64,000 nucleotides of DNA from Shinella zoogloeoides (GTDB taxonomy: Bacteria > Pseudomonadota > Alphaproteobacteria > Rhizobiales > Rhizobiaceae), in the NCBI RefSeq assembly GCF_020883495.1, contig NZ_CP086610.1:3365001-3429000 (forward strand), in the 5' to 3' direction. Shown here piece after piece: positions 44,196-61,899 of this stretch (position 1 is the first letter of the stretch; each line of letters opens with the position of its first letter). The notes beneath the pieces were generated by a model. The model was not told where the DNA came from. It worked only from the letters and a program-made list of their open reading frames with translations, and did no database searches. The position numbers and the translations under genes were made by a program.

Positions 44196-44411
44196 ATGAT
44201 GGCGGATGCGGCTGACCAAGCCATGACCGTGCGAGATGTGGCTGGCTACCTGAACGTCGACGAAAAGACGGTTTATCGGCTCGCCAAGCGCGGCGATCTG
44301 CCGGGTTTCAAAGTGGCCGGCGCATGGCGCTTCAAGAGGTCAGACCTCGATGGCTGGATCGATCTGCAGAAAAAAGCTGCGAAAAAAGAAAGTTTGAGGG
44401 GGCCCGAGTGA
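44196..44411 (+). CDS. Small helix-turn-helix (excisionase-type) DNA-binding protein
   Basis: The 71-aa protein contains TVRDVAGYLNVDEKTVYRLA, then GDLPGFKVAGAWRFKRSDLD, an excisionase/MerR-like winged helix (HTH_17). It starts at ATG 44196 (or 44199) behind AAGAGG. Its stop overlaps the GTG of hsdM (GTGA, 44408-44411), so it is the first gene of the restriction operon. Such proteins commonly precede type I hsdM genes and probably act as controllers of the operon. Confidence 0.83.
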   Translation: MMADAADQAMTVRDVAGYLNVDEKTVYRLAKRGDLPGFKVAGAWRFKRSDLDGWIDLQKKAAKKESLRGPE

Positions 44412-46540
44412 GCGATCTGAACATCAGCAATTTTATCTGGAACATCGCTGATGATGTTCTGCGCGATGTCTATGTTCGCGGCAAATACCGGGACGTCATC
44501 CTGCCGATGACCGTCATTCGTCGGCTCGACGCCGTGCTTGAACCGACCAAGGACGCTGTCTTGGCTATGAAGGCGCAGCTGGATAAGGCAGGAGTCGCCA
44601 ACCAGCACGCGGCTCTTTGCCAGGCGTCGGGCGAAGCCTTCTACAACACATCGCAGTTCCGGCTTCGCGACCTCACGTCTCGCGCGCGCCGCCAGCAGCT
44701 GAAGTCGGACTTCGAGGCCTACCTCGACGGCTTCTCCCCGAACGTTCAGGAAGTGCTCGACAAGTTCAAGTTCCGCAATCAGATCCCAACGCTTGTCGAA
44801 GCCGACGCGCTCGGGTTCCTGATCGAAAAGTTCCTCGACCCATCAGTTAATCTCAGCCCTAAGCCCGTGCTGCACCAAGACGGAAGTGTGCGCCTGCCCG
44901 GGCTCGACAACCACTCAATGGGAACAATCTTCGAGGAGCTTATCAGGCGGTTTAACGAAGAGAACAACGAGGAGGCCGGAGAGCACTTCACGCCTCGCGA
45001 CGTGGTCGAGCTCATGGCGTACCTGATCTTCATGCCGATCGCGGATGAAATTCAGTCAGGCACCTATCTCGTCTACGATGGTGCCTGCGGCACGGGAGGC
45101 ATGCTGACGGTCGCGGAAGAGACGCTGATCAAGTTGGCGACCGACCACGGGAAAGAGGTGTCGGTCCACCTCTACGGGCAGGAGGTCAATCCCGAGACAT
45201 TCGCCATCAGCAAGGCGGACCTCATCCTAAAAGGTGAAGGGGCCGAAGCCGAGAACATGAAGTATGGCTCGACGCTCTCCAGCGATGCATTCCCATCGAG
45301 TGAGTTCGATTTCATGCTTTCGAACCCTCCTTACGGCAAGAGCTGGAAATCCGATCTCGACCGGCTCGGCGGCAAGAAGGACATCACCGACCCCCGCTTT
45401 GTGATCGAGCACGATGGCGATCCCGAGTACAGCCTGATCACGCGCTCCAGCGATGGCCAGATGGTGTTTCTAGCCAACATGCTGAGCAAGATGAAGAAGG
45501 CCACCAAGGTCGGCAGCCGGATCGCCGAGGTCCACAATGGCTCATCTCTGTTCACGGGCGATGCGGGATCGGGTGAGAGCAATGTGCGGCGCTGGGTCAT
45601 CGAGAATGATTGGCTTGAGGCCATCATCGCGCTGCCGCTGAACATCTTCTACAACACTGGTATCGCGACTTACATTTGGGTGCTCAGCAATCGCAAGGCA
45701 GATTCCCGCAAGGGCAAGGTCCAGCTGATTGATGCGACGGCGTGGTTCAAACCTCTGCGGAAAAACCTCGGCAAGAAGAACTGCATTCTCGGGCCAGATG
45801 ACATCAAGCGCATCTGCGACAGCTTCCTCAACAGCGAGGAAAGCGAGCAGTCGAAGATCTTCCCCAACGCGGCGTTCGGTTACTGGAAGGTGACGGTCGA
45901 GCGGCCCTTGCGCTTGAAGGTCGAACTGTCCGCGAGCGCGCAGCGTCGCTTCGCGAAGACGTGCGCGGAGGCTGCTGAAGAGCCCCTCACTGGCGTTGTG
46001 GAAGCGGTGGCTGAGCGGCTTGGCGAAGGCCCCCATCTCGATTTCAACCGCTTCCTTGAAGAAGCCGAAGCTGTGGCGGGCAAGCGCGGCGTCCGTATGA
46101 CAGCCAAGCGCCAGAAGCTCCTGATGGCAGGGTTGGGCATCAAGGATCCCGGGGCGGAACCGGTCATCAAGAAGGCGTCCAAGATCAAGCCGGGCGCCGA
46201 TGCTGAATCTGATGCGCTGTACGGCAACTACCATCGGACCGTCGGTGGCAAAACAGCGATCGTCGAATTCGAGCCGGACACGGAGTTGAGGGATACCGAA
46301 CAGGTGCCGTTTTTAGAAGACGGCGGTATCGAGGCGTTCTTCCGTCGCGAGGTTCTGCCTCATGCGGCCGACGCCTGGATCGATCCGTCCAAGACGGTTA
46401 TCGGCTATGAAATCTCTTTCACGCGGCACTTCTACAAGCCACAGCCGCTGCGGACACTTCAGGAGATCGAAGCCGACATCCGGGCGCTTGAGCAGGAAAC
46501 CGAAGGCCTTCTTGAAGACGTGCTAACGGGAGGCCGCTGA
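44408..46540 (+). CDS. hsdM: Type I restriction-modification DNA methyltransferase subunit
   Basis: The 710-aa N6-adenine methyltransferase starts at GTG 44408 after GAGGGGG. It has the helical N-terminal domain ([20 protein letters not shown]), the family mark [19 protein letters not shown] motif [19 protein letters not shown] (about 223-232) and catalytic motif IV NPPYG (306-310). It is longer than the usual 500-550 aa, with a charged C-terminal extension (about 540-710) of unknown role. With HsdS it would methylate adenines in a bipartite target; with HsdR it forms the restriction complex. DUF262 follows two bases later. Confidence 0.93.
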
Positions 46541-48339: not shown

Positions 48340-48379
48340 GGGGCACGATGAATGTATTGCATTGGTAGGGGAACGAGGA

Positions 48380-49414
48380 ATGGCTGAACGTGATGAACTT
48401 CTAGCCTCGATTGTCGAGACAACTGCTGACTATCGTGAAGGGGATCTTGCTGCGCCAACACCAGAACATGTCGAGCGTTGGGTCAGTCAATTTGACGAGC
48501 ATGTTCGCCTGCCAATCTTGCGCGAAATCGATCACGTCCTAAAGTCGACTTACTTTTCTCGCGCGAACACGCGCAAGTTTCTCTCTGGCCTTTTTCAAAC
48601 CGACAGCCTCGTAGGCGAGGATCCATGCAAGTTTTGGGGGGGAGTGAGTTTCCTTGATGTCCAAGGAGGTGGTGCAAGCCAGAAGGAAATGCTCGCGCTA
48701 TTCAGCAAAATCCTTGAGAAAAGATGTGGATACTCCGTCAGCGACTGCGGCGCCGATCCACACTCCTTTGTTTACTTGGATGACGCCAGTTTCACAGGAA
48801 ACCGTGTCAGACAAGACGTTGAAGGTTGGATCGCCAAGTCGGCTCCAAAGGATGCGACCCTACATATCATCGCAATCGCACTTCATAGCAATGGTTCCAA
48901 TTACGCGAATGGACGTATTCAAGCTGCCGCAAAGGCAGCCGGAAAATCGATCAAGCTGAAGTGGTGGCGCGCAATTGCCCTCGAAGATCAACTAGGCCAG
49001 ACAAATTCCTCGGATGTTCTCCGACCGACACAAATTCCAGAAGATGACTTGGTGAAGGCATACGTGGAAGCAATGACCCATAAGCCTCGCTTACGAGTTC
49101 CAGGGCAGGTAGGCGGAAATGGCATCTTTTCGAGTGATGAAGGTCGACAACTGCTCGAACAGGAATTCCTGAAGGCTGGAGCGCGCATTCGGAGTATGTG
49201 CCCACATCTAAACAAGTATCAAAGGCCGCTTGGAAATTCACTCTTGGAGACACTCGGCTTTGGCTCCCTAATTGTCACTTTCCGAAACTGCCCAAACAAT
49301 GCGCCGCTGGCTCTTTGGGCGGGGGATCCCTGGTACCCGCTCTTCCCCCGAACGACCAACAGCGACACCTCGATGCGCAGGTTCATGGCCATGCTGGCGC
49401 GGGAAGACTTCTAA
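48380..49414 (+). CDS. Phosphoribosyltransferase-fold protein of the conflict-system type (PRTase-CE-like)
   Basis: The 344-aa protein has a PRPP-loop-like sequence FVYLDDASFTGNRVRQDVEG, with Asp-Asp at 134-135 and Thr-Gly about five residues on. It is preceded by strands typical of type I PRTases and followed by LHIIAIALHSNGSNYANGRI. The ATG at 48380 is chosen (GGGG ribosome site); an in-frame TTG at 48362 is possible. PRTase-like proteins have been linked by comparative genomics to defence islands; catalysis is unproven. Its base composition is visibly poorer in GC than its neighbours. The stop overlaps the next start as TAATG, so it is coupled to the NADAR-HsdS gene. Confidence 0.7.
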   Translation: MAERDELLASIVETTADYREGDLAAPTPEHVERWVSQFDEHVRLPILREIDHVLKSTYFSRANTRKFLSGLFQTDSLVGEDPCKFWGGVSFLDVQGGGASQKEMLALFSKILEKRCGYSVSDCGADPHSFVYLDDASFTGNRVRQDVEGWIAKSAPKDATLHIIAIALHSNGSNYANGRIQAAAKAAGKSIKLKWWRAIALEDQLGQTNSSDVLRPTQIPEDDLVKAYVEAMTHKPRLRVPGQVGGNGIFSSDEGRQLLEQEFLKAGARIRSMCPHLNKYQRPLGNSLLETLGFGSLIVTFRNCPNNAPLALWAGDPWYPLFPRTTNSDTSMRRFMAMLAREDF

Positions 49415-51531
49415 TGTCCCAGCCCAGCCAAGTTCGCACATATGTCCCCATCGAAAGCGCCGTCTTCCTGAAGACGAACGAGCGCTATGGCGGGCTGTCG
49501 AACATGGCGCCTGGCTTTCCGCTTGTCGTGAACGGTGTTCGGATCCGGACGTCGGAAGCGCTCTACCAGTCTTGCCGCTTCCCCCACATGCCAGAGGTGC
49601 AGCGCATGATCATCGGGGAGCGGAGCCCGATGACCGCCAAGATGCGCAGCAAACCCTACCACCGGGCGTCCCGACCGGATTGGGATGGCGTACGGGTCAA
49701 GATCATGCGCTGGTGCCTGCGCGTGAAGCTGGCTCAGAATTGGGCCACCTTCGGACGGCTCCTCCTGTCCACCGGGGATCGGCCCATCGTCGAGAAGAAG
49801 GTGCGCCGCAAGGATTTCTGGGGTGCCACCGAACAGCCGGACGGCACGCTCGTCGGCATGAACGTGCTCGGGCGGCTGCTTATGGAACTGCGCGAGCAGC
49901 TGAAGGGCGATGAGGCGGAGAGCCTGCGGTTCATCGAGCCGCTGGCGATCTCCGAGTTCCTGCTGTTCGGTCAGCCTATCGAGGCGGTCCAGGCCGCGCC
50001 CAATGCCGAGATCCCCGGCTGGACCCCTCGGCGGCCATCCCGGGCCGATACCGCCCCACCGCAGCCCAGCGACCCCCAGCCCTCCTTATTTGAGCAGCCA
50101 ATGATTTCAGACGCCGAACCTGTCTCTGCCCCGTCGCTCCCCACTCTCGCCAGAGACGATGATTCACAGAAGCATCTCTCAGACTATCACCCAGCAGTGC
50201 GCGATTGGCTTGGCGATCTGCCAGGTCGGTGGGACGTGCTACGAAGCAAGTATCTGTTTCGCGAGATCGACGACCGGACCGACACCGGGACGGAAACCCT
50301 ACTGTCTATGCGACAGGCTCATGGTCTGATCCCCCATGCGAAGGTGTCGACCAAGCCAGTCACGCCGGAAGAGCTCAAGGGATACAAGCGCGTCCGCACC
50401 GGCCAGATGGTGCTGAACCGCATGCAAGCGTCGAACGGCATGTTCGCGGTTGCGCGCGAGGACGGTCTGGTCAGCCCGGACTATGCCGTCTTCCAGCCAC
50501 TCCGGCCGATGAATCCTGACTACTTCGTCGACCTCTTCAAGACCACTATCTACCGAGCAAAGTTTCGCCAGGAATCGAAAGGGCTAGGAACCGGCATGTC
50601 CGGCTTTCTGCGCCTATACTCGGATCGTTTCGGGGCCATCCATGTCCCGCAACCGCCTGAAGAAGAACAGCGTAAGATCGTGCAGTTCATCCGGGTCTAT
50701 GACCTGCGCGTCCGTCGCCTGATCCGCAACAAGCGGCGGCTGATCGGGCTGTTAAACGAGCAGAAGCAGGCGATTATAAACCGGGCCATCACGCGTGGCC
50801 TGAACCCGAATGTTGCAATAAAGCCAACCGGCATTGCTTGGATGCCGGAAATCCCTGAAGAGTGGGTAGTAACTCCGTTGCGGCACCTCTCCATTTGTCT
50901 AGACGGCAAGCGCGTACCGCTCGAAGCGTCTGCCCGCGAAAAGATGCTCGGTGAGATCCCGTATTGGGGTGCGAACCAAATCATCGACCATTTGAACGAC
51001 TTCTTGTTCGACGAAGATCTGATCCTGCTTGGCGAAGACGGTGCCCCATTCTTTGATCGCAACAAGCCAGTCGCTTTCTTCTCACAAGGAAAAGTCTGGC
51101 CGAATAATCACATCCATGTACTACGGCCAAAGCCCGGCAATAGACCTGAGTTTATTGTGCATGCCCTGAATTGCGTCGACTACACGAATTATGTTGGCGG
51201 CGCCACGCGTAACAAGCTCACGCAAAGCTACATGAAAGCAATTCCCATCCCAATACCTCCGGAGAACGAGCAAAACGCGATCCTGGAGTATTTGACCCGG
51301 GAATGTACTCCGTTGGACGAAACGGCCGAACGGGCTGCTCGCGAGATTGGGCTTATTCAGGAGTACCGAGAGCGCCTGATCGCTGACGTTGTTACCGGCA
51401 AGCTGGACGTTCGCCACGTCGAGATCGCAGCGCCCGAGGACGAGCCGATCTTGGATGAGGATGACGCGCTGGAGGAGGAGCTGGAAGGCGACGCCGCCGA
51501 GGTGATGGAGGGGGCCGATGCCGACGAGTAG
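49414..51531 (+). CDS. hsdS: NADAR domain fused to type I specificity subunit HsdS
   Basis: This 705-aa protein is a fusion. Residues about 10-165 are a complete NADAR (YbiA/COG3236-like) domain: YGGLSNM (25-31), TSEALYQSCRFPHMPEVQ (Glu at 48), KLAQNWATFGRLLLSTGD, DFWG (134-137) and GMNVLGRLLMELREQL. A Pro-rich linker (180-260) follows. The HsdS part then has TRD1 (266-412), conserved region PPEEEQRKIVQFIRVYDLRV with NEQKQAIINRAITRGLNP, TRD2 (about 473-613), the second conserved region PPENEQNAILEYLTRECTPL (615 on) and a very acidic tail. The reading frame is unbroken, with no strong internal ribosome site. NADAR proteins act on ADP-ribose-type N-glycosidic bonds, so the specificity subunit would bring that activity to DNA. 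Confidence 0.85.
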   Translation: MSQPSQVRTYVPIESAVFLKTNERYGGLSNMAPGFPLVVNGVRIRTSEALYQSCRFPHMPEVQRMIIGERSPMTAKMRSKPYHRASRPDWDGVRVKIMRWCLRVKLAQNWATFGRLLLSTGDRPIVEKKVRRKDFWGATEQPDGTLVGMNVLGRLLMELREQLKGDEAESLRFIEPLAISEFLLFGQPIEAVQAAPNAEIPGWTPRRPSRADTAPPQPSDPQPSLFEQPMISDAEPVSAPSLPTLARDDDSQKHLSDYHPAVRDWLGDLPGRWDVLRSKYLFREIDDRTDTGTETLLSMRQAHGLIPHAKVSTKPVTPEELKGYKRVRTGQMVLNRMQASNGMFAVAREDGLVSPDYAVFQPLRPMNPDYFVDLFKTTIYRAKFRQESKGLGTGMSGFLRLYSDRFGAIHVPQPPEEEQRKIVQFIRVYDLRVRRLIRNKRRLIGLLNEQKQAIINRAITRGLNPNVAIKPTGIAWMPEIPEEWVVTPLRHLSICLDGKRVPLEASAREKMLGEIPYWGANQIIDHLNDFLFDEDLILLGEDGAPFFDRNKPVAFFSQGKVWPNNHIHVLRPKPGNRPEFIVHALNCVDYTNYVGGATRNKLTQSYMKAIPIPIPPENEQNAILEYLTRECTPLDETAERAAREIGLIQEYRERLIADVVTGKLDVRHVEIAAPEDEPILDEDDALEEELEGDAAEVMEGADADE

Positions 51532-54500
51532 GCCCGCAATCCCAATCGAAATAAAGCGCGATGTGCTCTTCGAGGCTCGTCATCATTGCGCTGTCTGCTG
51601 CACGTCGCTGCCGCTCGAGTACGCGCACCTGATTCCATGGAGCAAGTCGCAAGACCATTCGCTCGAAAACCTCATTGCCCTGTGCGCAAACTGTCACGAG
51701 CGGGCGGACAACGAAAAATGGGGCGTGAGCTACCTCCAACGATACAAAAAGTCACCGTGCATCATTGCACGCGGTGATCCGCCGCCGATGACGGCAGAGC
51801 AGAAAATGCTGGTCGATCTGATCGTGGCGCGCGATCCGGATGAGATGAATCAGAAAGAGCGGCAGCGCCTGGTATCAATGGTAGCTGCTTATGTAGGTGT
51901 TCCATTCGGCCAAATAGGGATTTCATCCGTAACCCAAGCCAACAGCTCTCGAGTTCGTTTGGAAATGCCGTCTGACGCGGCGCGACGCTTGGTTGCTGGT
52001 TTCGAGGCCAAAGACCCAATGCTCGAGGCGTTCCTGAGCGAAGCGGGCCTAATTCGGGTCGATGCCGGCCCCTCGGTTCAAGGAGGCCGCGAAATGCGCC
52101 AGCACACCGACACAAGCGAAAAGGGCCTCGAAACCCTCATCGTCCGCTCGCTGATCGACGAGGCGGGTTACGTCGCTGGCGCCTCGAAGGATTTCGACCG
52201 GGACCACGCCATCGACCTGGCCAAGCTGTTCGATTTCCTGAACGCCACACAGCCAGAGGCCGTCGAAGCCCTCGGCATCGGAGAAGACGGTCCGAAGCGG
52301 CTGCAATTCCTTCACCGGGTGCAAGGCGAGATCGCCAAGCGCGGTGTCATCGACGTGCTGCGCAACGGCGTGAAGCACGGCCCTGGATCGGTCGAGCTGT
52401 TCTTCGGGACGCCGACCCCCGGCAACACGAAGGCCGAGGAGCTGTTCGCCGCCAACGTGTTCAGCGTCACCCGGCAGCTGCACTATTCCAAGGATGCGAC
52501 CAAGCTGTCGCTCGACGCTGCGCTGTTCATCAACGGCCTGCCCGTCGCCACCTTTGAGTTGAAGAACAGCCTGACCAAGCAGACGGTCGAGGACGCGATC
52601 GAGCAGTACAAGCGCGACCGCGATCCCAAGGAGCTGCTGTTCCAGTTCGGCCGCTGCGTCGTCCACTTCGCCGTGGACGACCACGAGGTGCGGATGTGCA
52701 GCCACCTGAAGGGCAAGGCGTCCTGGTTCCTGCCTTTCAACAAGGGCTGGAATGACGGCGCGGGCAACCCGCCGAATCCGCATGGTCTGAAGACCGATTA
52801 CCTTTGGAAGCAAGTCCTTACGAAGCGCAACCTCACCGACATCCTGGAGAACTATGCGCAGGTGGTCGAGGAAACGGACGAGCGAGGAAAGAAGAAGCCG
52901 CCGAAGCAGATTTTCCCTCGCTTTCACCAGCTCGACGTGGTGCGCAAGCTGCTGGCTGACGCCGAGGGCTCCGGCGCCGGGCGGCGGTACCTAATCCAGC
53001 ACTCGGCAGGTTCGGGCAAGAGCAACTCGATTGCTTGGCTCGGCCACCAGCTGATCGGGCTGGAGACCGGCGGCAAGCCGACCTTCGACACCGTCATCGT
53101 TGTCACCGACAGGCGCAATCTCGACAAACAGATCCGCGACACCATCAAGCAGTTCGCGCAGGTATCTTCCATCGTCGGCGCGGTCACCGAAGGCTCGCAG
53201 CAGCTGCGGACGTTCCTGCAGCAGGGCAAGAAGATCATCATCACCACGGTGCAGAAGTTCCCGTTCATCCTAGACGAAATTGGGGACGGCCATCGCGGGC
53301 GAACCTTCGCCATCATCATCGACGAGGCGCATTCCAGCCAGGGCGGCCGGACGTCAGCCAAGATGAACATCGCGCTTGCCGCGAATGGTGCCGAGGAGGA
53401 AGACGAAACCGTCGAGGATACCATCAACCGGCTGATGGAAGCGCGGAAGGTTCTGCCGAACGCGAGCTATTTCGCCTTCACCGCGACACCCAAGAACAAG
53501 ACGCTGGAGATTTTCGGCACGGCGGTCCCCGAGGGTGGGAAAGTCAGGCACGTCCCTTTCCACAATTATTCGATGAAGCAGGCCATCGAAGAGGGATTCA
53601 TCCTCGACGTTCTCAAGCACTACACGCCGGTCGAGAGCTACTACCGGCTCATGAAGACGGTGGAGGACGATCCGCAGTTCGACGCCAAGCGGGCGCAAAA
53701 GAAGCTCCGCCGATATGTCGAATCCCATGACCATGCCATCCGCAAGAAGGCAGAGATCATGGTCGACCATTTCCACGACCAGGTGATGGCCCATCGCAAA
53801 ATCGGCGGAGCAGCGCGCGCCATGGTGGTGACCAGCGGGATTCACCGGGCCATCCAGTACTTTCACGCCTTCGGGGAGTATCTGAAGGAGCGCAAGAGCC
53901 CATACCAAGCCATCGTCGCCTTCTCGGGCGAGCATGAATATGGCGGCCAGAAGGTCACCGAGGCGTCGCTCAACGGCTTTCCCAGCAACAAGATCGAGGA
54001 GTTGATACAGAAGGATCCGTACCGGTTCCTCATCGTCGCCGACAAGTTCCAGACCGGCTATGACGAGCCGCTGCTGCACACGATGTACGTGGACAAGACG
54101 CTGTCCGGCATCAAGGCCGTGCAGACGCTGTCGCGCCTGAACCGGGCGCATCCGCAGAAGCACGACACCTTCGTGCTGGATTTCATGAACGACGTGGATG
54201 GCATCAAGGCGTCGTTCGAGGACTATTACCGCACGACGATCCTGAGCGAAGAGACCGATCCGAACAAGCTGCACGACCTGAAAGCGCGGCTCGATGGCTA
54301 TCAGGTCTATTCCTGGGAGCGGGTGGAGGACCTCGTGGCGCTGTACCTCGGTGGCGCCGACCGCGACAAGCTCGACCCGATCCTCGATGCGTGCGTCGCG
54401 GTCTACAAAGCCGATCTCGATGAGGATGGACAGGTCGACTTCAAGGGCAAGGCGAAGGCATTCACGCGCACCTACGGATTTCTCGCGGCCATCCTGCCCT

Positions 54501-55072
54501 ATACGAACGCGGAATGGGAGAAGCTCTCGATTTTCCTGAACTTCCTGACGCCGAAACTGCCTGCTCCGGAGGAGCAGGATCTGTCGAAGGGCATTCTGGA
54601 GGCCATCGACATGGACAGCTACAGGGTCGAGGCGCAGGCGACGATGGCGATTGCGCTTCCCGATGCCGACGCGGAAATCGGCCCTGTGCCGTTGGGCGGA
54701 GGCGGTCGCAAGCCTGAGCCGGAATTGGACCTGCTCAGCAACATCCTCAAGACGTTCAACGAGATGTTCGGCAACATCGACTGGAAGGACGCCGACAAGA
54801 TCGGGAAGGTGATAGCTGAGGAGTTGCCCACGAAGGTCGCGGCCGACAAGGCCTATCAAAACGCGATGCAGAATTCGGACAAGCAGAACGCCCGCATCGA
54901 GCACGACAAGGCACTGGAGCGCGCGGTCATCGAACTGCTATCTGACCATACCGAGCTGTTCAAACAGTTCAGCGACAATCCATCTTTCAAGAAATGGCTT
55001 TCGGAGACGATTTTCGCGGCGACCTATGCCGACAAGGCGGCGCAGGCCGGTTCGGCTGCTACTCGCAGCTGA
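51518..55072 (+). CDS. hsdR: HNH nuclease domain fused to type I restriction subunit HsdR
   Basis: The 1184-aa protein starts at ATG 51518 (GGAGGGGG) and overlaps the HsdS end by 14 bases. Residues 15-65 are an HNH domain: CAVC (24-27), AHLIPW with His37, NLIALCANCHERAD with Cys56, Cys59 and His60. HsdR proper begins near residue 193 (MRQHTDTSEKGLETLIVRSL). It has a PD-(D/E)xK site (Asp333, then ATFELKNS with Glu347/Lys349), Walker A HSAGSGKS (495-502), DEAH (602-605) and FAFTATPKNKTLEIFG. The internal ATG 52094 is preceded by AGGAGG at perfect spacing, so both fused and shorter HsdR could be made. Confidence 0.9.
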   Translation: MPTSRPAIPIEIKRDVLFEARHHCAVCCTSLPLEYAHLIPWSKSQDHSLENLIALCANCHERADNEKWGVSYLQRYKKSPCIIARGDPPPMTAEQKMLVDLIVARDPDEMNQKERQRLVSMVAAYVGVPFGQIGISSVTQANSSRVRLEMPSDAARRLVAGFEAKDPMLEAFLSEAGLIRVDAGPSVQGGREMRQHTDTSEKGLETLIVRSLIDEAGYVAGASKDFDRDHAIDLAKLFDFLNATQPEAVEALGIGEDGPKRLQFLHRVQGEIAKRGVIDVLRNGVKHGPGSVELFFGTPTPGNTKAEELFAANVFSVTRQLHYSKDATKLSLDAALFINGLPVATFELKNSLTKQTVEDAIEQYKRDRDPKELLFQFGRCVVHFAVDDHEVRMCSHLKGKASWFLPFNKGWNDGAGNPPNPHGLKTDYLWKQVLTKRNLTDILENYAQVVEETDERGKKKPPKQIFPRFHQLDVVRKLLADAEGSGAGRRYLIQHSAGSGKSNSIAWLGHQLIGLETGGKPTFDTVIVVTDRRNLDKQIRDTIKQFAQVSSIVGAVTEGSQQLRTFLQQGKKIIITTVQKFPFILDEIGDGHRGRTFAIIIDEAHSSQGGRTSAKMNIALAANGAEEEDETVEDTINRLMEARKVLPNASYFAFTATPKNKTLEIFGTAVPEGGKVRHVPFHNYSMKQAIEEGFILDVLKHYTPVESYYRLMKTVEDDPQFDAKRAQKKLRRYVESHDHAIRKKAEIMVDHFHDQVMAHRKIGGAARAMVVTSGIHRAIQYFHAFGEYLKERKSPYQAIVAFSGEHEYGGQKVTEASLNGFPSNKIEELIQKDPYRFLIVADKFQTGYDEPLLHTMYVDKTLSGIKAVQTLSRLNRAHPQKHDTFVLDFMNDVDGIKASFEDYYRTTILSEETDPNKLHDLKARLDGYQVYSWERVEDLVALYLGGADRDKLDPILDACVAVYKADLDEDGQVDFKGKAKAFTRTYGFLAAILPYTNAEWEKLSIFLNFLTPKLPAPEEQDLSKGILEAIDMDSYRVEAQATMAIALPDADAEIGPVPLGGGGRKPEPELDLLSNILKTFNEMFGNIDWKDADKIGKVIAEELPTKVAADKAYQNAMQNSDKQNARIEHDKALERAVIELLSDHTELFKQFSDNPSFKKWLSETIFAATYADKAAQAGSAATRS
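52081..52096 (+). promoter_or_regulatory. Strong internal ribosome binding site within the HNH-hsdR gene
   Basis: AGGAGG (52081-52086) lies seven bases before the in-frame ATG 52094. That ATG corresponds to the normal HsdR N-terminus (MRQHTDTSEKGLE). This would allow translation of an HsdR lacking the HNH domain. It is probably the relic or working start of an originally separate hsdR. Confidence 0.65.
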
Positions 55073-55628: not shown

Positions 55629-55794
55629 TGGTTTCCTCCAATGTTTCGAGACGTTCGGCGAGGCGGCCCGTGCGTTCACCGGAGCGCCGGAGTGCGAACA
55701 GGAACAGGAGCACTGTGAGCGCGATGGCGCCGTAGCGGAGAGCCGTCCGGGCCCACGGGTTGGTGGCGAACCCAGCGAGGAGCGCACCAATCAT
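55537..55794 (-). CDS. Rz-like inner-membrane spanin
   Basis: The 85-aa protein has one transmembrane segment near the N-terminus (TALRYGAIALTVLLFLFALR) and a coiled-coil periplasmic region (GRLAERLETLEETNDVQRRM). The ATG at 55794 overlaps the stop of the peptidase gene by four bases. The topology, size and overlap with the lipoprotein gene fit an i-spanin. A small holin is a less likely alternative. Confidence 0.7.
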   Translation of the reverse strand: MIGALLAGFATNPWARTALRYGAIALTVLLFLFALRRSGERTGRLAERLETLEETNDVQRRMLDAAARRPRDRHELADRLRNGRF

Positions 55795-56465
55795 CGGCGG
55801 CCCCGCTTCCAATCGTCCAGCCGCGCGTAGATCGTGATCGCGATCCCGCCGAGCGCCACGGCGATGAACACCCAGCGGAGCGTGTCGAGGTACGGCACCA
55901 GCGGCAGGATGGCGGTCTGGGTCTCGGTCAGGACGCTGTGTGCGACCTCCACGCCGGCAGCGCCCAGCGTGGCGACACCGGCCGCCCCGCCACCCTTCAT
56001 GGTGCGGCTGTCGCCCAGCACTTCGCGCGCAGGCGGCGTTTCAGCCGCGAAGGCTGTCGCCCGGATTGGGAAGCACTCGCCCCACTGGCGAGCGGGCCCG
56101 AGATCGACATGGATGAATCCTGATCGCGGGTAGAATCCGAAGCCGAGGAACCCGACCTCCCGCGCTGCTGCCTCGAACGCCACCGGGTCATGGTTCGCCA
56201 TGGCGATGTCGAAGGCCGCGCCGTCGAGGTGCTTCGACCGGGTGGCGCCGCCCACGGCGCGGTTGTGCTCGGGGCTGCGATAGGCGGAACGCACGATCAG
56301 CGGTTTGCCCAACCGGTCGCGCAGCGCCTGCAGCCTGTCGAGCGCGGGCTCGTTGATGAGCAGCTTGCCGGTGCCCCGGCAGGCGATCTCCGCCGGGCTG
56401 AAGTTCGGCCAGCGCCAGGCGCTCTCCGGCACGTTGCGCCAGTGATCGTAGAAGGTCGTGGTCAT
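55791..56465 (-). CDS. Peptidase M15A-type endolysin with C-terminal membrane segment
   Basis: The 224-aa protein has the M15 zinc peptidase core: KPLIVRSAYRSPEHNRAVGG, KHLDGAAFDIAMANHDPVAF (His and Asp ligands) and GFIHVDLGPARQWG (second His). A glycine-rich linker leads to a C-terminal transmembrane helix (TLRWVFIAVALGGIAITIYA). It would cut peptide cross-links of the cell wall during lysis. GGAGG precedes ATG 56465. A terminator lies just upstream of the gene. Confidence 0.85.
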   Translation of the reverse strand: MTTTFYDHWRNVPESAWRWPNFSPAEIACRGTGKLLINEPALDRLQALRDRLGKPLIVRSAYRSPEHNRAVGGATRSKHLDGAAFDIAMANHDPVAFEAAAREVGFLGFGFYPRSGFIHVDLGPARQWGECFPIRATAFAAETPPAREVLGDSRTMKGGGAAGVATLGAAGVEVAHSVLTETQTAILPLVPYLDTLRWVFIAVALGGIAITIYARLDDWKRGRR

Positions 56466-56481
56466 GGGGTCCTCCGAAAAC

Positions 56482-56505
56482 GAAAAACCCGCCTCGAGGG
56501 CGGGT
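56482..56505 (-). terminator. Terminator between tail genes and the lysis cassette
   Basis: On the minus strand the stem ACCCGCC / GGCGGGT (loop CTCGA) is followed by TTTTTCGTTTT. It lies after the DUF6127 gene and before the endolysin gene, so tail transcripts may partly end here. Confidence 0.78.
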
Positions 56506-56538
56506 CATTGCGGGCTGATGAATGTGGATGGGGCGCGG

Positions 56539-56826
56539 CTACGGGCTGCCGCCGAAGATCTTGAGCTTGATCGCGATGCCGGCGAGCAGCGCCAGCATCA
56601 CGCCGGTGGTGATCATGCGGACGACCGTCTGCATGGCGGTGCGGCGCACGAGGCGGATGCAGTCGACCAGGGAGCGCAGATCGCGGATGTCGAGCGCGGC
56701 CTCGTCGCCGTCGAGCCCGACATCGGCCAGCGCGCGCTTCGCGCCTTCCTCGGCGGCGCGCGCCAGGATCGCCTCGAACTCGTGCTCGGGTATGCGGACG
56801 AAGCCCTCGGATCGGGGTGGGGTCAT
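56539..56826 (-). CDS. DUF6127-family phage protein
   Basis: The 95-aa protein begins MTPPRSEGFVRIPEHEFEAI and has a soluble helical part (LADVGLDGDEAALDIRDLRS). The C-terminal membrane segment is MQTVVRMITTGVMLALLAG. This small family regularly sits between the tail and lysis genes of alphaproteobacterial prophages. A holin-like or tail-assembly role is possible but not known. Confidence 0.72.
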   Translation of the reverse strand: MTPPRSEGFVRIPEHEFEAILARAAEEGAKRALADVGLDGDEAALDIRDLRSLVDCIRLVRRTAMQTVVRMITTGVMLALLAGIAIKLKIFGGSP

Positions 56827-56846
56827 TGAGATCCTCCCTCCGCCGC

Positions 56847-57923
56847 TCAGCCGACCTTGCAGCCCCAGAAGGACGTGTGGTCGGCGGCGAAATAGCCGTC
56901 CGCGACCCGGAAATATCCCTGCAGCTCCACGGTATCGCCCGCGGTGAGCGGCACCATGGTCTGCAGCCAGATCGCGGTGGCGAGCGAGACGTGGGTGGCG
57001 GAGATTTCGCCGAGGGAGCCGCGGATTTCCGTCGTGCCGTTCAGGACGAGCCGCCCGCGCATGCGGGCCGTGGCGCTGGCGTTGATCTTGTAGAGGAGCG
57101 TCGCGCCGAACAGGTAGGTGCCGTCGACGGGTGCCACGAAGTGGTTGTTCGCGGCGTCGAACGCCCCCTGATCGTTGTAGTCGGTGTTGTTCAGGCCGAT
57201 CTTCGTCCAGGTCCCCACGCCCACGTAGTTGTCGTAGTTGGTCCAGGCCTTGAACCGCGGCAGCCGGGGCTGATCGACGATGCCGGTGGCGTTGTCGACG
57301 CTGAGGCCATCGAAGAAGGTGCTGCCGTCGGCCGAGACCGCGAGGCGGAACCGGTCGGAGCCGAACAACCCCACCAGCGCCTTGGTCACGAAGCCGGTCT
57401 GCAGCGTCAGGCCGAGATCGTCGCCTGCCGCCTCCTTGTTCATGGTGTAGAACAGGTCGCCGGTGCCGCCCTCGGCCACGGTCTTCGCCGTCCAGAGCGC
57501 GGCGTTCAGCTTGGCCGAGAACGGGTTCGAGGTGTCCGCTGTGGTGCCAAGCCCCAGCAGCGCGAGGTTCTGCAACGCAGCCGGTGTCGTCCCAACCCAG
57601 CCCGCGCCGTCGTAGACCAGGAGCAGTCCCTGGTCCTCGACCCACGCGCGCCAGCCGGTGCGTGGCGGCAGGCGAAGCCAGGCGCCATCGGTCCAGAGCG
57701 CGACGTTCAGGTCCCACCCCGCCCAGTCGCCGGTTGCGCCCGAGGCGACGATGTAGCGGTCGCCATCGGCTGGCGAACCAGGCGGCGCAGTCAGGTCCCG
57801 GTCGAGAACGGAGAGCTGGACAAGCCCGTCGAGCAGCCGCAGCGCCTCGTTGTGGGTGACGTGTTTCTGGGCCTGCGCCGCGAGGATGTAGGGCAGCAGG
57901 AGATGGGTCGTGGCGTCGGACAT
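56847..57923 (-). CDS. DUF2793 phage tail-associated protein
   Basis: The 358-aa protein starts at ATG 57923 with the conserved DUF2793 domain (LLLPYILAAQAQKHVTHNEA, then LDRDLTAPPGSPADGDRYIV). The variable, beta-rich C-terminus (about 190-358) includes VDGTYLFGATLLYKI. Such proteins are putative tail-fibre or head-decoration components of alphaproteobacterial phages. The C-terminal C1q/TNF-like beta fold suggests receptor binding. It follows the large tail protein by 10 bases. Confidence 0.82.
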   Translation of the reverse strand: MSDATTHLLLPYILAAQAQKHVTHNEALRLLDGLVQLSVLDRDLTAPPGSPADGDRYIVASGATGDWAGWDLNVALWTDGAWLRLPPRTGWRAWVEDQGLLLVYDGAGWVGTTPAALQNLALLGLGTTADTSNPFSAKLNAALWTAKTVAEGGTGDLFYTMNKEAAGDDLGLTLQTGFVTKALVGLFGSDRFRLAVSADGSTFFDGLSVDNATGIVDQPRLPRFKAWTNYDNYVGVGTWTKIGLNNTDYNDQGAFDAANNHFVAPVDGTYLFGATLLYKINASATARMRGRLVLNGTTEIRGSLGEISATHVSLATAIWLQTMVPLTAGDTVELQGYFRVADGYFAADHTSFWGCKVG

Positions 57924-57933
57924 GGGATGGCCT

Positions 57934-60900
57934 TCAGAACAAGAGCGTGACGGTTTTCGGTGAGCCCTGCCCGACGAGGGCGGAGAGCTGGAAGATGCGG
58001 ATGTCGAGCGTGTCGCCGGGGGCGAGCGGCGCACCACAATCGGCGCTCTGCTGGGCGGCGGTGTAGACCGCGCTGGTGGTGGCGGTGCTCAGCACCCGCT
58101 TCACGGTGGCGCCGTCGAGGATCTCGACCTCGTAGGCTTCCAGTTCCTCGCCGAGCGGCACCTCGAGTCCGCCCCAGCTGTCGGCCGCGAGCGCGCGGGA
58201 CCGGCGCGTCCAGCGGATCGTCAGATCGCCGGGCGTGCGCGGCGTGCGCCACGGCTGCTCGACATGGGCGACGGAGAACGGCCGCAGCCCGATGCCTTCG
58301 GGCGTGAAGGCCTGCGCCACATATGTCTCGTCGCTGACCGGGCGGCTCGCGGGGCCCATGCGCCAGTTCCACGGAATGCCGAGATCGGCTTCGGCGATCG
58401 GCAGGGACGCAAGGCTGTCGTCCAGCACCACGACCCGAGCGCCTGTCGGAGCCGGGTTGCCCATCGCGCCCTCGGTGCCGCGCTGACCGCGCAGGAGCCG
58501 CGTCAATCTATACCGGCCAGGCGCCAGCAATTCGACCGCGCCCGCCTGGACGATCTCCCAGGTGCCGGACGTGCTCTCAATGGCGAGCGCATTTGCCCCT
58601 CCGAACAGTGTCAGGTCCGTGACGCTTTCGAGAGTGCCGGTCAGCAGATCGACCACCAGCGCATTGCCAAGATCGAAGCGCGACGTAGGGCCCGGGTAGA
58701 AGTCCGAGACCAGCGCGCCGATCCGGGCGCGGCTGCCGAACGTGGTCAGCAGTTCGAACCCGTCCGTCGACGGGCTGCGGAACACCGCCATCTCGCCCGG
58801 CCAGGGAACCGCGTGCGCCGCGACCAGCGGCCGATGTGCGGGCTGGTCCTCGGTCAGCTGCGGCAGGTCCATCAGCACTGCTTCCGGCGCGCCGAACACC
58901 ACGGCGCGCGTAAGTGACGCCGCCCGCGGATCGCCGGGCGGCAGGTCGTAGGTCGCCCGGTCCTGGCGGACCGCCTCGATGCCGCGCGCCTCGGCGTCGG
59001 CGATGGAGACGAGCCGCAGATCGACCAGCCGCCCGTTATGCTCCAGCCGGATCGCGTCGGCCGGATCGAGCGCGAGGCGCGAAGGCGGCAGACGGAACGC
59101 CGCCGTCTCGCGCCCCACCCACGCCTCCATCAATGCGCGGCGGCAGCGCCGCTCGGCCTCCTCGGGCGGAACGGCCATCGGGAAGGACTCGGAGGCGATG
59201 CGCGTCGTGTCCACGGTGATGCGCCGGGCCTCGACGAGGGCCGCGTCGTAGTCCTCGTCGGCGCGGGCGACCTGCCACTTCAGGGCCTGCGGCAGCTCCG
59301 TCTCCTGTCCGCGCGTCAGCTCCAGCACGTCGCCCTCTCGGGCCGCCACCAGATCGTCGGGCGCGAGGGTCGCGACAGAGGCCCGGCCACGCATGATGAA
59401 ACGGATCACGCCCTCGGTCTCCACGGCGTCGAAGCCGAAGTGGCGCGACAGCGTGGTGATCGACGCGCGCGGACTCTCCAGCGCCGTGATGGCGTAGCCC
59501 TCGACCGCGCCCCAGAGGCCGATGACGTCGATCCGCGCCTCGGGCAGCCCGGCGCGCAGGCAGAGGTGCCGCACGAGCGCCGCCAAAGACACCGCGCCAA
59601 GCCGTCCGGTCAGCCAATGCCCCAGTCGCCAGTTCGCCCCGTCCGTCCAGACATCGGTGAGCGCCGGAAAGAAGGGATAGGGTCGCGCGTCCCATGTCCA
59701 GGCGGCGCATTCCGGGACATGCACCATCCGGCCGCCGTAGACCGAGGACACAGGGTTGTTCCCGGTCTCGCCCCACCAGAGGTACGTCGCCTCGAGATAG
59801 GCGCGCTGGATCGCGTCGTCGCGCCAGCCCCGCGAGAAATGCGGCGTGAAGCTCTCCGACGACTTCGGGTCGAAGAAGACATTGGGCTGGTTGGTGCCCC
59901 GATCGATGGCCGGGCAGCCGAGCTCGGTGAACCAGACCGGCTTCGACTCCGGCGTCCATGCCGTCGCCGTCCCGCTCTCCACGCCACCGGGGCGGTCATA
60001 GTGCGGGTTCGACCACCAGCCGCGCAGGTCCTTGTAGCGGAAGACCCACGGCTTGCTGGCCGCACCATCGGTGATCGGGGTGCGCACCTGCGCGGAGCGG
60101 TCCGCTGCGCTGGCGTAGAACCAGTCGAAGCCTTCGCCGCCGACGATGTTCCCCTGCAGATAGGCCCGGTCGTAGATCGCGGGCCAGCCCTCTTGCGCGT
60201 CGAGATGCTCGAACCCGTCGCGCCAGTCCGAGAGCGGCATATAGTTGTCGATCCCGACGAAATCGATCTCCGGATCGGCCCAGAGCGGATCAAGGTGGAA
60301 GAACACGTCACCGCTGCCGTCGCCCGGCTGGTGGCCGAAGTACTCCGACCAGTCGGCCGCATAGCCGATCTTCGTTCCGGACCCGAGGATTGAGCGCACA
60401 TCCGCGAGGAGGTCCCGATAGGCCTGTACCGCCGGATAGGTGGTTGCGCCCGAGCGGATGGTGGTCAGCCCTGGCATCTCGGTCCCGATCAGAAAGGCAT
60501 CGACCCCGCCCGCTGCCGCGCAGAGATGGGCGTAGTGCAGCACCATTCGGCGCAGGCCCCAGTCGCCGGGCGTGCCTGTCCACGAAACCGACTGACCCGA
60601 GACGCTGAAGCTCGCGGGCGTGGCTGCGCCGAACAGCGCCGCGACCTGGCTTGCGGCCGTGGCGGTCTTGTCCACGGTCCCGGCGTAACCTGCGGCCGGA
60701 GAACAGGTGATCCGCCCCCGCCAGGGGAATGCGGGCTGGCCCGTCTCGGCGGCATTGTCGGAATAGGGGTTCGGCAGCGTGTTGCCGGGCGGCACGTCCA
60801 TCAGGATGAACGGATAGAAGGTCACCCGCAGCCCGCGCGCCTTCATCTCCTGGATGGCCTGCACCACCGCGAAGTCGGACGGCGTGCCACCATAGACCGG

Positions 60901-61899
60901 GCGGTCCTGGTCGTCACGGCTGACGAGAAAGGCGTTGGTGCGGCTGACGCCGTTCACCGACCAGCTGGCGGGCGTGGTCGACTTGGCCGACACCTCGACA
61001 CCCGGCCGCACTTTACAGGAGCCCGCGCGCAGGTCGTCGCCGAACCACGCCACCACAAGGCTCACGCTCTCGACCGCCGGGGCCATCGCCTGCAGCCGGT
61101 CGAGCGCCTCCACCATGTCGGTGGAGTCCGCCAGAGCGTTCAGGTTCTCGGGCGCCGTCGCGCCGCCATCGGTCTTTCGGATCGCCTGCGTGGCATAGGT
61201 GAACTCGCCCGAGGCCGGGATCATGGTGACGGCCTGCACCAGCCCCTCGGCGGTGTCGGGATCGGCGAGCGGGCGGAACACCTCGAAGGACAGCTGCGGC
61301 AAGCGGTTGCCGTAGGTCGAGAGCGCCAGTTCCTCGAAGACGACATAGGCGGTGCCGCGATAGGCGGGTGTGCTGGCCGCGCCCATCTTCGCCGAAATGA
61401 ACGGATCGGCCGCCTGCGTCTCGTCGCCCGGATACCAGCGCCAGGTGACGCTGGAGAGGTCCATCGGCTTGCCGTCGGCCCAGATGCGGCCGATGCCGGT
61501 GATCGGGCCCTCGCACAAGGCCACCGCGAAGCTCGCGTAATACAGATACTCGGTCGTCTTGACCTTGCCGCCCCCGCCGCCCTTGCCGCCGCCCTGCGTG
61601 GTGGTCTTGGTCTCCTCGCGGAAATCGGTCGCCCAGATGATGTTGCCGCCCAGCCGCATCCGGCCATAGAGCCGCGGGATGACCGCGCCTTCTGTAGCGG
61701 AGGTGATGCGCAGCGTGTCGAGCCGCGCGCCCTCGATGCGCTGCGTCGGCGCCAGCGACGAGATGATCCAGCTGTCGACGACCGAGCCGATGCTGGAGCC
61801 GATGAAGCCGCCGATCGTCGCGGCGCTGACGCCGAGGATCGCGCCGCCGATCGAACCGCCAATGGCGGCGCCGGCCGCGCCGAGAACGAGGGTGGCCAT
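57934..61899 (-). CDS. Large GTA-type phage tail/host-recognition protein (TIM-barrel-like)
   Basis: The 1321-aa protein starts with a hydrophobic glycine-rich segment (LVLGAAGAAIGGSIGGAILG, residues 3-45). It holds a Gly-rich loop (GGGKGGGGGKVKTTEYLYYA), a glycoside-hydrolase-like GTA TIM-barrel domain (about 440-740; FLIGTEMPGLTTIRSG, FVGIDNYMPLSDWRDGF) and a phage-tail-3-like region, then a C-terminal baseplate-type domain. This is the layout of the Rhodobacter capsulatus GTA gp15 family, a tail-tip protein. It is preceded by NlpC/P60 and DUF2163 genes, the normal GTA order. Confidence 0.88.
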   Translation of the reverse strand: MATLVLGAAGAAIGGSIGGAILGVSAATIGGFIGSSIGSVVDSWIISSLAPTQRIEGARLDTLRITSATEGAVIPRLYGRMRLGGNIIWATDFREETKTTTQGGGKGGGGGKVKTTEYLYYASFAVALCEGPITGIGRIWADGKPMDLSSVTWRWYPGDETQAADPFISAKMGAASTPAYRGTAYVVFEELALSTYGNRLPQLSFEVFRPLADPDTAEGLVQAVTMIPASGEFTYATQAIRKTDGGATAPENLNALADSTDMVEALDRLQAMAPAVESVSLVVAWFGDDLRAGSCKVRPGVEVSAKSTTPASWSVNGVSRTNAFLVSRDDQDRPVYGGTPSDFAVVQAIQEMKARGLRVTFYPFILMDVPPGNTLPNPYSDNAAETGQPAFPWRGRITCSPAAGYAGTVDKTATAASQVAALFGAATPASFSVSGQSVSWTGTPGDWGLRRMVLHYAHLCAAAGGVDAFLIGTEMPGLTTIRSGATTYPAVQAYRDLLADVRSILGSGTKIGYAADWSEYFGHQPGDGSGDVFFHLDPLWADPEIDFVGIDNYMPLSDWRDGFEHLDAQEGWPAIYDRAYLQGNIVGGEGFDWFYASAADRSAQVRTPITDGAASKPWVFRYKDLRGWWSNPHYDRPGGVESGTATAWTPESKPVWFTELGCPAIDRGTNQPNVFFDPKSSESFTPHFSRGWRDDAIQRAYLEATYLWWGETGNNPVSSVYGGRMVHVPECAAWTWDARPYPFFPALTDVWTDGANWRLGHWLTGRLGAVSLAALVRHLCLRAGLPEARIDVIGLWGAVEGYAITALESPRASITTLSRHFGFDAVETEGVIRFIMRGRASVATLAPDDLVAAREGDVLELTRGQETELPQALKWQVARADEDYDAALVEARRITVDTTRIASESFPMAVPPEEAERRCRRALMEAWVGRETAAFRLPPSRLALDPADAIRLEHNGRLVDLRLVSIADAEARGIEAVRQDRATYDLPPGDPRAASLTRAVVFGAPEAVLMDLPQLTEDQPAHRPLVAAHAVPWPGEMAVFRSPSTDGFELLTTFGSRARIGALVSDFYPGPTSRFDLGNALVVDLLTGTLESVTDLTLFGGANALAIESTSGTWEIVQAGAVELLAPGRYRLTRLLRGQRGTEGAMGNPAPTGARVVVLDDSLASLPIAEADLGIPWNWRMGPASRPVSDETYVAQAFTPEGIGLRPFSVAHVEQPWRTPRTPGDLTIRWTRRSRALAADSWGGLEVPLGEELEAYEVEILDGATVKRVLSTATTSAVYTAAQQSADCGAPLAPGDTLDIRIFQLSALVGQGSPKTVTLLF

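Follow-up and report, generated by a model that had tools for sequence, protein, structure and literature searches.

Organization of the operon

The window, i.e. the whole stretch of 64,000 nucleotides of Shinella zoogloeoides analyzed here, contains a type I restriction-modification operon with the gene order hsdM, a GmrSD-like gene, a phosphoribosyltransferase (PRTase) gene, a gene in which a NADAR domain is joined to the specificity subunit HsdS, and hsdR with an HNH stretch (Table 1). NADAR was reportedly named by de Souza and Aravind in 2012. A sequence-only reading of the window had noticed that the NADAR domain and an HsdS with two target recognition domains (TRDs) share one unbroken frame. 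This was confirmed, as neither a stop codon nor a frameshift separates the two parts. The PRTase gene is located directly upstream of the fusion, its stop codon and the ATG of the fusion share one base (TAATG), and at the other end the fusion gene and hsdR have 14 bases in common. With its two TRDs, the conserved helices and hsdM and hsdR as neighbors, the HsdS part is a type I specificity subunit. The PRTase and the NADAR-HsdS protein almost certainly form one functional unit. Whether this unit is, as a whole, a DarTG-like writer/eraser pair which acts on DNA and has its eraser tethered to the restriction complex is in our estimation evenly balanced. This favored reading is based on the constant pairing of the two proteins, their conserved active sites, the repeated joining of NADAR to DNA-directed parts and the exchange with DarT-DarG.

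The GC content of the operon (0.54-0.63) is lower than that of its flanks (0.63-0.65 at 38-43 kb, 0.68-0.72 from 56 kb). A GmrSD_N-like match was detected in 19 of 42 fusion operons (window included), one match comprising just 96 amino acids. The HNH stretch of the window hsdR covers residues 32-65 (51518-51720); the other hsdR proteins of these operons are approximately 990 amino acids long and seem to be devoid of it. To the right, the operon directly adjoins gene-transfer-agent tail genes (GTA_TIM, Phage-tail_3) and a peptidase M15 gene (55791-61899, minus strand).

Table 1. Features of the operon (positions in the window; pLDDT, predicted local distance difference test)
Feature	Position	Strand	Basis
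hsdM, type I DNA methyltransferase subunit	44324..46540	+	N6_Mtase and HsdM_N; PADLOC MTase_I 843 bits
GmrSD_N (DUF262)-like gene, 598 aa	46543..48339	+	PF03235, 104.5 bits
PRTase-CE phosphoribosyltransferase, DS32_1 family, presumed writer	48362..49414	+	PF24390 194.5 bits; NF053875 424.1 bits
PRPP-loop-like stretch of the PRTase, residues 138-148	48773..48805	+	conservation
NADAR-HsdS fusion, 705 aa	49414..51531	+	single open frame
NADAR part (DS32_2), residues 8-189, presumed eraser	49435..49980	+	NF053876 and conserved pocket
Disordered linker, residues 207-255	50032..50178	+	pLDDT under 50 in the model
QPSLF, residues 222-226, beta-clamp-binding-like motif	50077..50091	+	conservation; consensus Q-L-x-L-F
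HsdS part, two target recognition domains, residues 257-670	50182..51423	+	profiles, PADLOC, model
hsdR with HNH stretch near the N-terminus	51518..55072	+	SWI2_SNF2, HSDR_N, HNH

Active sites of the PRTase and NADAR

The PRTase exceeded the cut-off of the NCBIfam model NF053875 (DS32_1) with 424.1 versus 250 bits, the adjoining NADAR that of NF053876 (DS32_2) with 272.6 versus 240 bits. The window pair fits both models of the DS32_1/DS32_2 pair, which is named anti-phage by NCBIfam. Moreover, the PRTase fits the PRTase-CE/type I phosphoribosyltransferase profile and possesses a conserved DD loop, whose residues Y138, D140, D141 and G146 are identical in 79 of 79 sequences. Alignment A3 comprised the window and 60 of 78 PRTases. 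From general knowledge of the PRTase superfamily, residues 138-148 are presumably the motif binding phosphoribosyl pyrophosphate (PRPP). The structure model of the protein reached a pLDDT of 94.4, and a comparison of its sequence with solved structures gave no match up to E 10.

The NADAR part was found to have the YbiA fold. The sequence-only reading had taken the domain to be complete, and its residues E48, R55, K76, W90, E127 and W136 turned out to be identical in 81 of 81 sequences. When matched by spacing with the pocket of the P. nicotianae NADAR (E43, K50, E125, W133), residues E48, E127 and W136 are the invariant counterparts while K50 is replaced by R55 in 81 of 81 sequences. As judged by the alignments, active-site residues are kept in both the PRTase and NADAR. 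A degenerate NADAR retained as a scaffold was rejected because the pocket residues are invariant.

Distribution and architectures of the pair

To determine the spread of the pair, one genome per species (84,980 species) was scanned with two peptide patterns and the best 80 of 182 relatives were kept, a choice that biases the mix of architectures towards query-like proteins. The 80 loci comprised 41 NADAR-HsdS fusions, 25 solo NADARs, seven fusions of NADAR with a DUF1156 methylase (L056, L076, L084, L086, L101, L105 and L106, with DUF499 near and the PRTase upstream) and seven proteins with another C-terminus. The fusion is thus found well beyond one genome. A chance frame or assembly artefact was ruled out by the same join in 41 of 80 other loci, a fusion private to the window genome by these loci together with the class search described below. 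Two loci, L035 and L062, start at a contig edge; in each of the other 78 a PRTase gene is located just upstream. The fusion loci carry eight labels (Pseudomonadota, Acidobacteriota, Planctomycetota, Myxococcota, Thermodesulfobacteriota, Chloroflexota, Melainabacteria, Minisyncoccota), but many of them are metagenome-assembled genomes whose phylum labels may err, as illustrated by L065 and L075, which are near-identical yet assigned to Chloroflexota and Pseudomonadota, respectively. In the NADAR tree, the fusion label changes at least 10 times, three changes being forced by starred branches.

The pairing was also seen from the PRTase side. Among 398 genomes of the phylum, three exceeded the DS32_1 cut-off, and NADAR adjoins in all three; a fourth match (G655) scored 25.9 bits, far below the cut-off, and had no NADAR in the stretch examined. 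In the class of the genome, DS32_2 matches at E <= 1e-3 occurred in 18 of 385 genomes. Three were above the cut-off: the window genome, G060 with the same operon plan, and G308 with a stand-alone pair. Solo pairs reside on Klebsiella, Vibrio and Methylobacterium records that are filed as plasmids. A NADAR DNA piece, covering 22% of the query and 66% identical to the Klebsiella one, was detected in 62 of 5,426 E. coli genomes, and in the one E. coli record examined the pair lies between genes of lambdoid-prophage type, both proteins being above the DS32 cut-offs. A DNA search of plasmids yielded a single match covering 5% of the query, and a PRTase search of 50,697 phage records gave no match at 1e-5.

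Among the loci on viral contigs, a PRTase was present in 13 of 16. NADAR genes without a PRTase in the stretches of approximately 12.5 kb examined were observed in L191 and L192 (6001-6570 in each; viral contigs of 435 and 231 kb) and in L193. The L191 NADAR, which adjoins thymidylate synthase and dihydrofolate reductase genes, scored 216 bits against DS32_2 (cut-off 240). It could be a phage eraser directed against the PRTase. A further NADAR gene without a PRTase lies beside a Dam-type methyltransferase gene on an 882 kb Vibrio parahaemolyticus record (L127, 5144-6639).

Exchange of recognition domains behind a constant NADAR

Thirty-three fusions were aligned (A4: the window and 32 of 41 fusion loci, omitting eight near-copies and L066). 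In 44 pairs of them the NADAR is at least 90% identical while a TRD is less than 50% identical; the reverse, NADAR below 75% and a TRD of at least 80%, was seen in seven pairs. The window protein and that of L029 are 98% identical in NADAR, 35% in TRD1 and 21% in TRD2. Because TRDs are exchanged while the NADAR remains constant, the function of the latter is probably independent of the recognition sequence; the reading of a NADAR matched to one recognition sequence was rejected in view of these swaps.

The sequence-only reading had proposed that the TRDs aim NADAR at an ADP-ribose-type mark on phage DNA, or that restriction is gated by the NAD status. That NADAR is brought to DNA stands; that it is aimed at a specific sequence is unlikely in view of the 44 pairs. 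The NADAR pocket does resemble pockets accepting ADP-ribose, and the protein includes a DNA-reading part. However, the proposal overlooked the neighboring PRTase and gives it no role, and the nearest NADARs of the class that lack a PRTase fall short of the DS32_2 cut-off. Since the PRTase adjoins in 78 of 78 readable loci, a PRPP-derived phosphoribosyl group is the more likely NADAR substrate, and we consider the earlier proposal very unlikely.

Linker motif and other ties of NADAR to DNA

Behind the NADAR core, the pattern Q-x-x-[LM]-F was detected in most fusions (37 of 42) and about half of the solo proteins (13 of 25), but in none of the seven DUF1156 fusions and none of the seven other proteins. 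In total, 50 of 81 proteins possess it, whereas 1000 shuffles, which ignored kinship, gave 0.57 on average and never more than 4. In the fusions the motif forms an island in a poorly conserved linker (A4: Q 28/33, S 28/33, L 32/33, F 31/33), in solo NADARs it often occupies the very C-terminus (e.g. QPALF, QSDMF), and in the DUF1156 fusions it is found near the C-terminal end of the methylase instead (6/7 strict, 7/7 relaxed). The tails of the 42 fusions beyond the first 75 residues (18,780 residues) do not contain it. It was also absent from six DarG and three DarT proteins and from 19 NADARs of the class without a PRTase, most of which end within a few residues of the domain and leave little room for a motif; three of the 19 with long tails and two with 21-29 residues lacked it as well. 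The E. coli pair ends with GQSLSLF, one residue off the pattern, and was not counted. The consensus Q-L-x-L-F of beta-clamp-binding proteins is usually C-terminal and often situated in unstructured sequence (PMC4549789; this and the following PMC numbers refer to excerpts of the papers). QPSLF of the window lies within the stretch with pLDDT<50 and fits the pattern in a disordered or terminal stretch. From this resemblance we infer that the linker motif may bind the beta-clamp (DnaN).

Some proteins with another C-terminus have further ties. L055 contains a helix-hairpin-helix domain, L077 and L098 resemble L055 by eye, and cyanobacterial members resemble winged helices by eye; the one cyanobacterial protein scanned (L099) gave no Pfam match above the cut-off. 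The DNA-directed parts joined to the eraser thus include HsdS, a DUF1156 methylase, a helix-hairpin-helix domain and the clamp-like motif. This bears on the possibility that the two enzymes produce and degrade a small nucleotide serving as a signal that switches on restriction or another effector, with NADAR-HsdS as the sensor or off-switch. PRTases mostly make soluble nucleotides (PMC5512222), and phage NADARs have been proposed to act on soluble ADP-ribose derivatives. On the other hand, a signal needs a receiver, and in 25 of 80 loci, on plasmids and in prophages the pair stands by itself and no other effector was identified. In addition, the DNA-directed parts are on the NADAR side and not on the PRTase side, so that this explanation appears quite unlikely to us.

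The fusion might also be incidental, a merger of neighboring genes in which NADAR works as if it were separate. Some solo NADARs (L046, L051, L054) are placed inside fusion clades of the NADAR tree, and in the sister operons described below DarT-DarG are unfused beside hsdS. But the fused form was retained across loci labelled with eight phyla and the motif island was retained in the linker, while a NADAR-DUF1156 fusion arose too. An incidental merger is therefore highly improbable.

DarT-DarG in the same slot of sister operons

Within the class, 10 of 385 genomes were found to have a close hsdM relative (69-92% identity, the window's own hsdM aside); in the phylum, 14 of 398 genomes had relatives at E up to 1e-150. 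DarG or traces of the DarT-DarG pair were present in nine of 14 sister operons without the pair (excluded were L131 at a contig edge, L135 with only hsdM found, and G288:C76; the distant L150-L154 were not counted). Five of them contain full-length DarT and DarG (L132, L143, L144, L145, L155), L128 has DarG and a partial DarT, L148 has DarG alone, and L146 and L147 contain fragments. The identities of DarT and DarG were confirmed by profile on L132 and L145. The order in L145, hsdM, GmrSD-like (598 aa), hsdS, DarT, DarG and hsdR, is the window plan with DarT-DarG replacing PRTase-NADAR. By contrast, the 42 fusion operons showed no DarT match and a single DarG remnant. For 9/14 versus 1/42, Fisher p is 2.4e-6, though the sets were drawn differently, the fusions by NADAR and the sister operons by hsdM, and the groups were defined after the data had been seen. 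In the window operon itself, neither DarT nor DarG was matched, the DarT query being one macrodomain-type DarT. In the hsdM tree (57 rows, L155 absent), the three states are interleaved and need 8 changes; for the pair, at least 6 are forced by starred branches.

The single remnant (L094, 7021-7629) is a DarG match of 183 residues between the NADAR-HsdS gene and hsdR which ends like the DarG C-terminus. It looks like a fossil of the replacement of DarTG by PRTase-NADAR.

This exchange with a DNA-modifying pair, like the repeated joining of the eraser to DNA-directed parts, speaks against the same toxin-antitoxin logic with a target other than DNA, namely tRNA, other RNA, protein, or a drain of PRPP or the base pool. 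NADAR would then reverse the modification or bind the PRTase, and the HsdS fusion would only be a guard or addiction tie. Such a target is conceivable as NADARs reverse guanosine ADP-ribosylation of RNA too, PRTase effectors are typical of type III-A retrons, and PrrC, tied to the type I enzyme EcoprrI, is a tRNA nuclease (PMC3874165). All in all, we regard it as rather unlikely.

Proposed mode of action

PRPP is the donor from which PRTases transfer a phosphoribosyl group (PMC5512222). The bonds cleaved by NADARs are ribosyl N-glycosidic ones, in riboflavin intermediates and guanosine-ADPr; guanosine ADP-ribosylation is reversed by NADAR, which is also the antitoxin of DarT1 (PMC11543638, PMC11125620). 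For the window pair, the chemistry, the antitoxin role and the clamp binding are predictions. The PRTase would use PRPP to place phosphoribosyl on a nitrogen atom of a base in DNA, guanine N2 being a guess, and the mark would block replication. NADAR would hydrolyse this N-glycosidic bond and hence be the antitoxin, held on host DNA by HsdS and perhaps by the clamp-type motif. Because the eraser is part of HsdS, loss of the restriction complex would remove it as well; a phage disabling the complex would leave the PRTase unchecked, as in the case of PrrC freed from EcoprrI. This guard step, conceived by analogy, is the weakest and least supported part of the scheme. In its widest form, with reversible DNA phosphoribosylation as a phage defence, a clamp- or restriction-tethered NADAR that erases the host mark, and the tie to HsdS as a guarded switch by which anti-restriction triggers a second weapon, the scheme can only be put forward tentatively.

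Several points weigh against the favored reading. No PRTase is known to us to act on polymeric DNA, nor was one seen among the papers listed. Foldseek matches of the PRTase model were weak (best E 1.6e-3, none <= 0.001), therefore the fold says nothing on the acceptor. The strict motif is absent from five of 42 fusions, 12 of 25 solo proteins and all seven proteins with another C-terminus, from the unfused NADAR and DUF1156 genes in L136 and L137, and from the PRTase-linked NADAR of G308. Five of the 14 sister operons (L129, L130, L133, L134, L149) are without any such pair. Arginine replaces the catalytic K95 in all NADARs of the set, and a K95R variant of the E. coli C7 NADAR was active in vitro, yet the cells were not protected (PMC11543638). 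Action of the pair on DNA, including toxicity of the PRTase and binding to the clamp, is a prediction from computation.

The scheme supplies a testable chemistry for a pair known in the sources seen only by its anti-phage name: the PRTase adds a group that NADAR should release. Type I operons, already known to house DarTG, would gain a second ribosyl writer/eraser module. The question of a crosstalk between DNA methylation and DNA ribosylation raised in 2016 (PMC5179494) becomes approachable because the eraser and the specificity subunit are here one polypeptide. A functional clamp-like motif would explain how erasers reach host DNA without a restriction complex. Since a NADAR of an eraser family is fused to HsdS and a PRTase gene adjoins, the data suggest that an ordinary restriction system contains a second defence, which works by reversible marking.

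Comparison with known systems

Already known are the pair (NCBIfam), NADAR as an antitoxin, and the insertion of DarTG in type I operons (PMC5179494). As far as our searches reach, the fusion and its spread, the exchange of the slot with DarTG and the clamp-like motif are new. As the sequence-only reading had surmised, no description of a NADAR-HsdS protein was found among the open-access papers listed (subscription papers and preprints lay outside the search), nor was a paper on PRTase-CE; the DS32 pair itself is already named in NCBIfam. In the excerpts of PMC11543638, hsdS occurs in strain genotypes. The DefensePredictor paper (PMC13092281) names its 42 validated units DSs and, in the parts seen, mentions NADAR domains and a PRTase. 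We infer that DS32 is DS-32 of that paper, in whose main text 'DS-32' was not found.

The window proteins share with the DS32 pair, of which stand-alone forms exist in E. coli, Klebsiella and Vibrio records, scores above both cut-offs, but in the window NADAR and HsdS form one protein and the pair is embedded in a type I operon. In the anti-phage-associated DUF1156-DUF499 systems, the DUF1156 methylase carries the same NADAR as a fusion (seven of 80 loci, DUF499 near) or the genes are side by side (L136, L137). They differ by another methylase and the lack of HsdS, and the proteins scanned were below the cut-offs of both NCBIfam models. E. coli ybiA-ybiB likewise unites in one operon a NADAR gene and a gene for a DNA-binding protein with PRTase-like fold (PMC11125620); YbiB, however, is TrpD2-like and restriction genes are missing. 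In DarT1-NADAR (DarTG1) and YarT-YbiA, NADAR is the hydrolase that accompanies a toxic transferase (PMC11543638, PMC11125620), which is an ADP-ribosyltransferase instead of a PRTase, and the window NADAR has arginine for the catalytic lysine. The window operon is neither a DarTG nor a DarT1-NADAR system, as the partner of its NADAR is a PRTase-CE; at most, it works like DarTG. DarT2-DarG (macrodomain) resembles the pair in occupying the same operon of the same hsdM lineage and in combining a ribosyl transferase with a hydrolase. The protein families are unrelated, though, DarT2 uses NAD+ while the presumed donor of the PRTase is PRPP, and DarG is not fused to HsdS. Finally, EcoprrI is also a type I operon with an embedded toxin, the tRNA nuclease PrrC, which the restriction complex holds (PMC3874165). 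In the window operon, by contrast, it is the presumed antitoxin that is covalently contained in HsdS.

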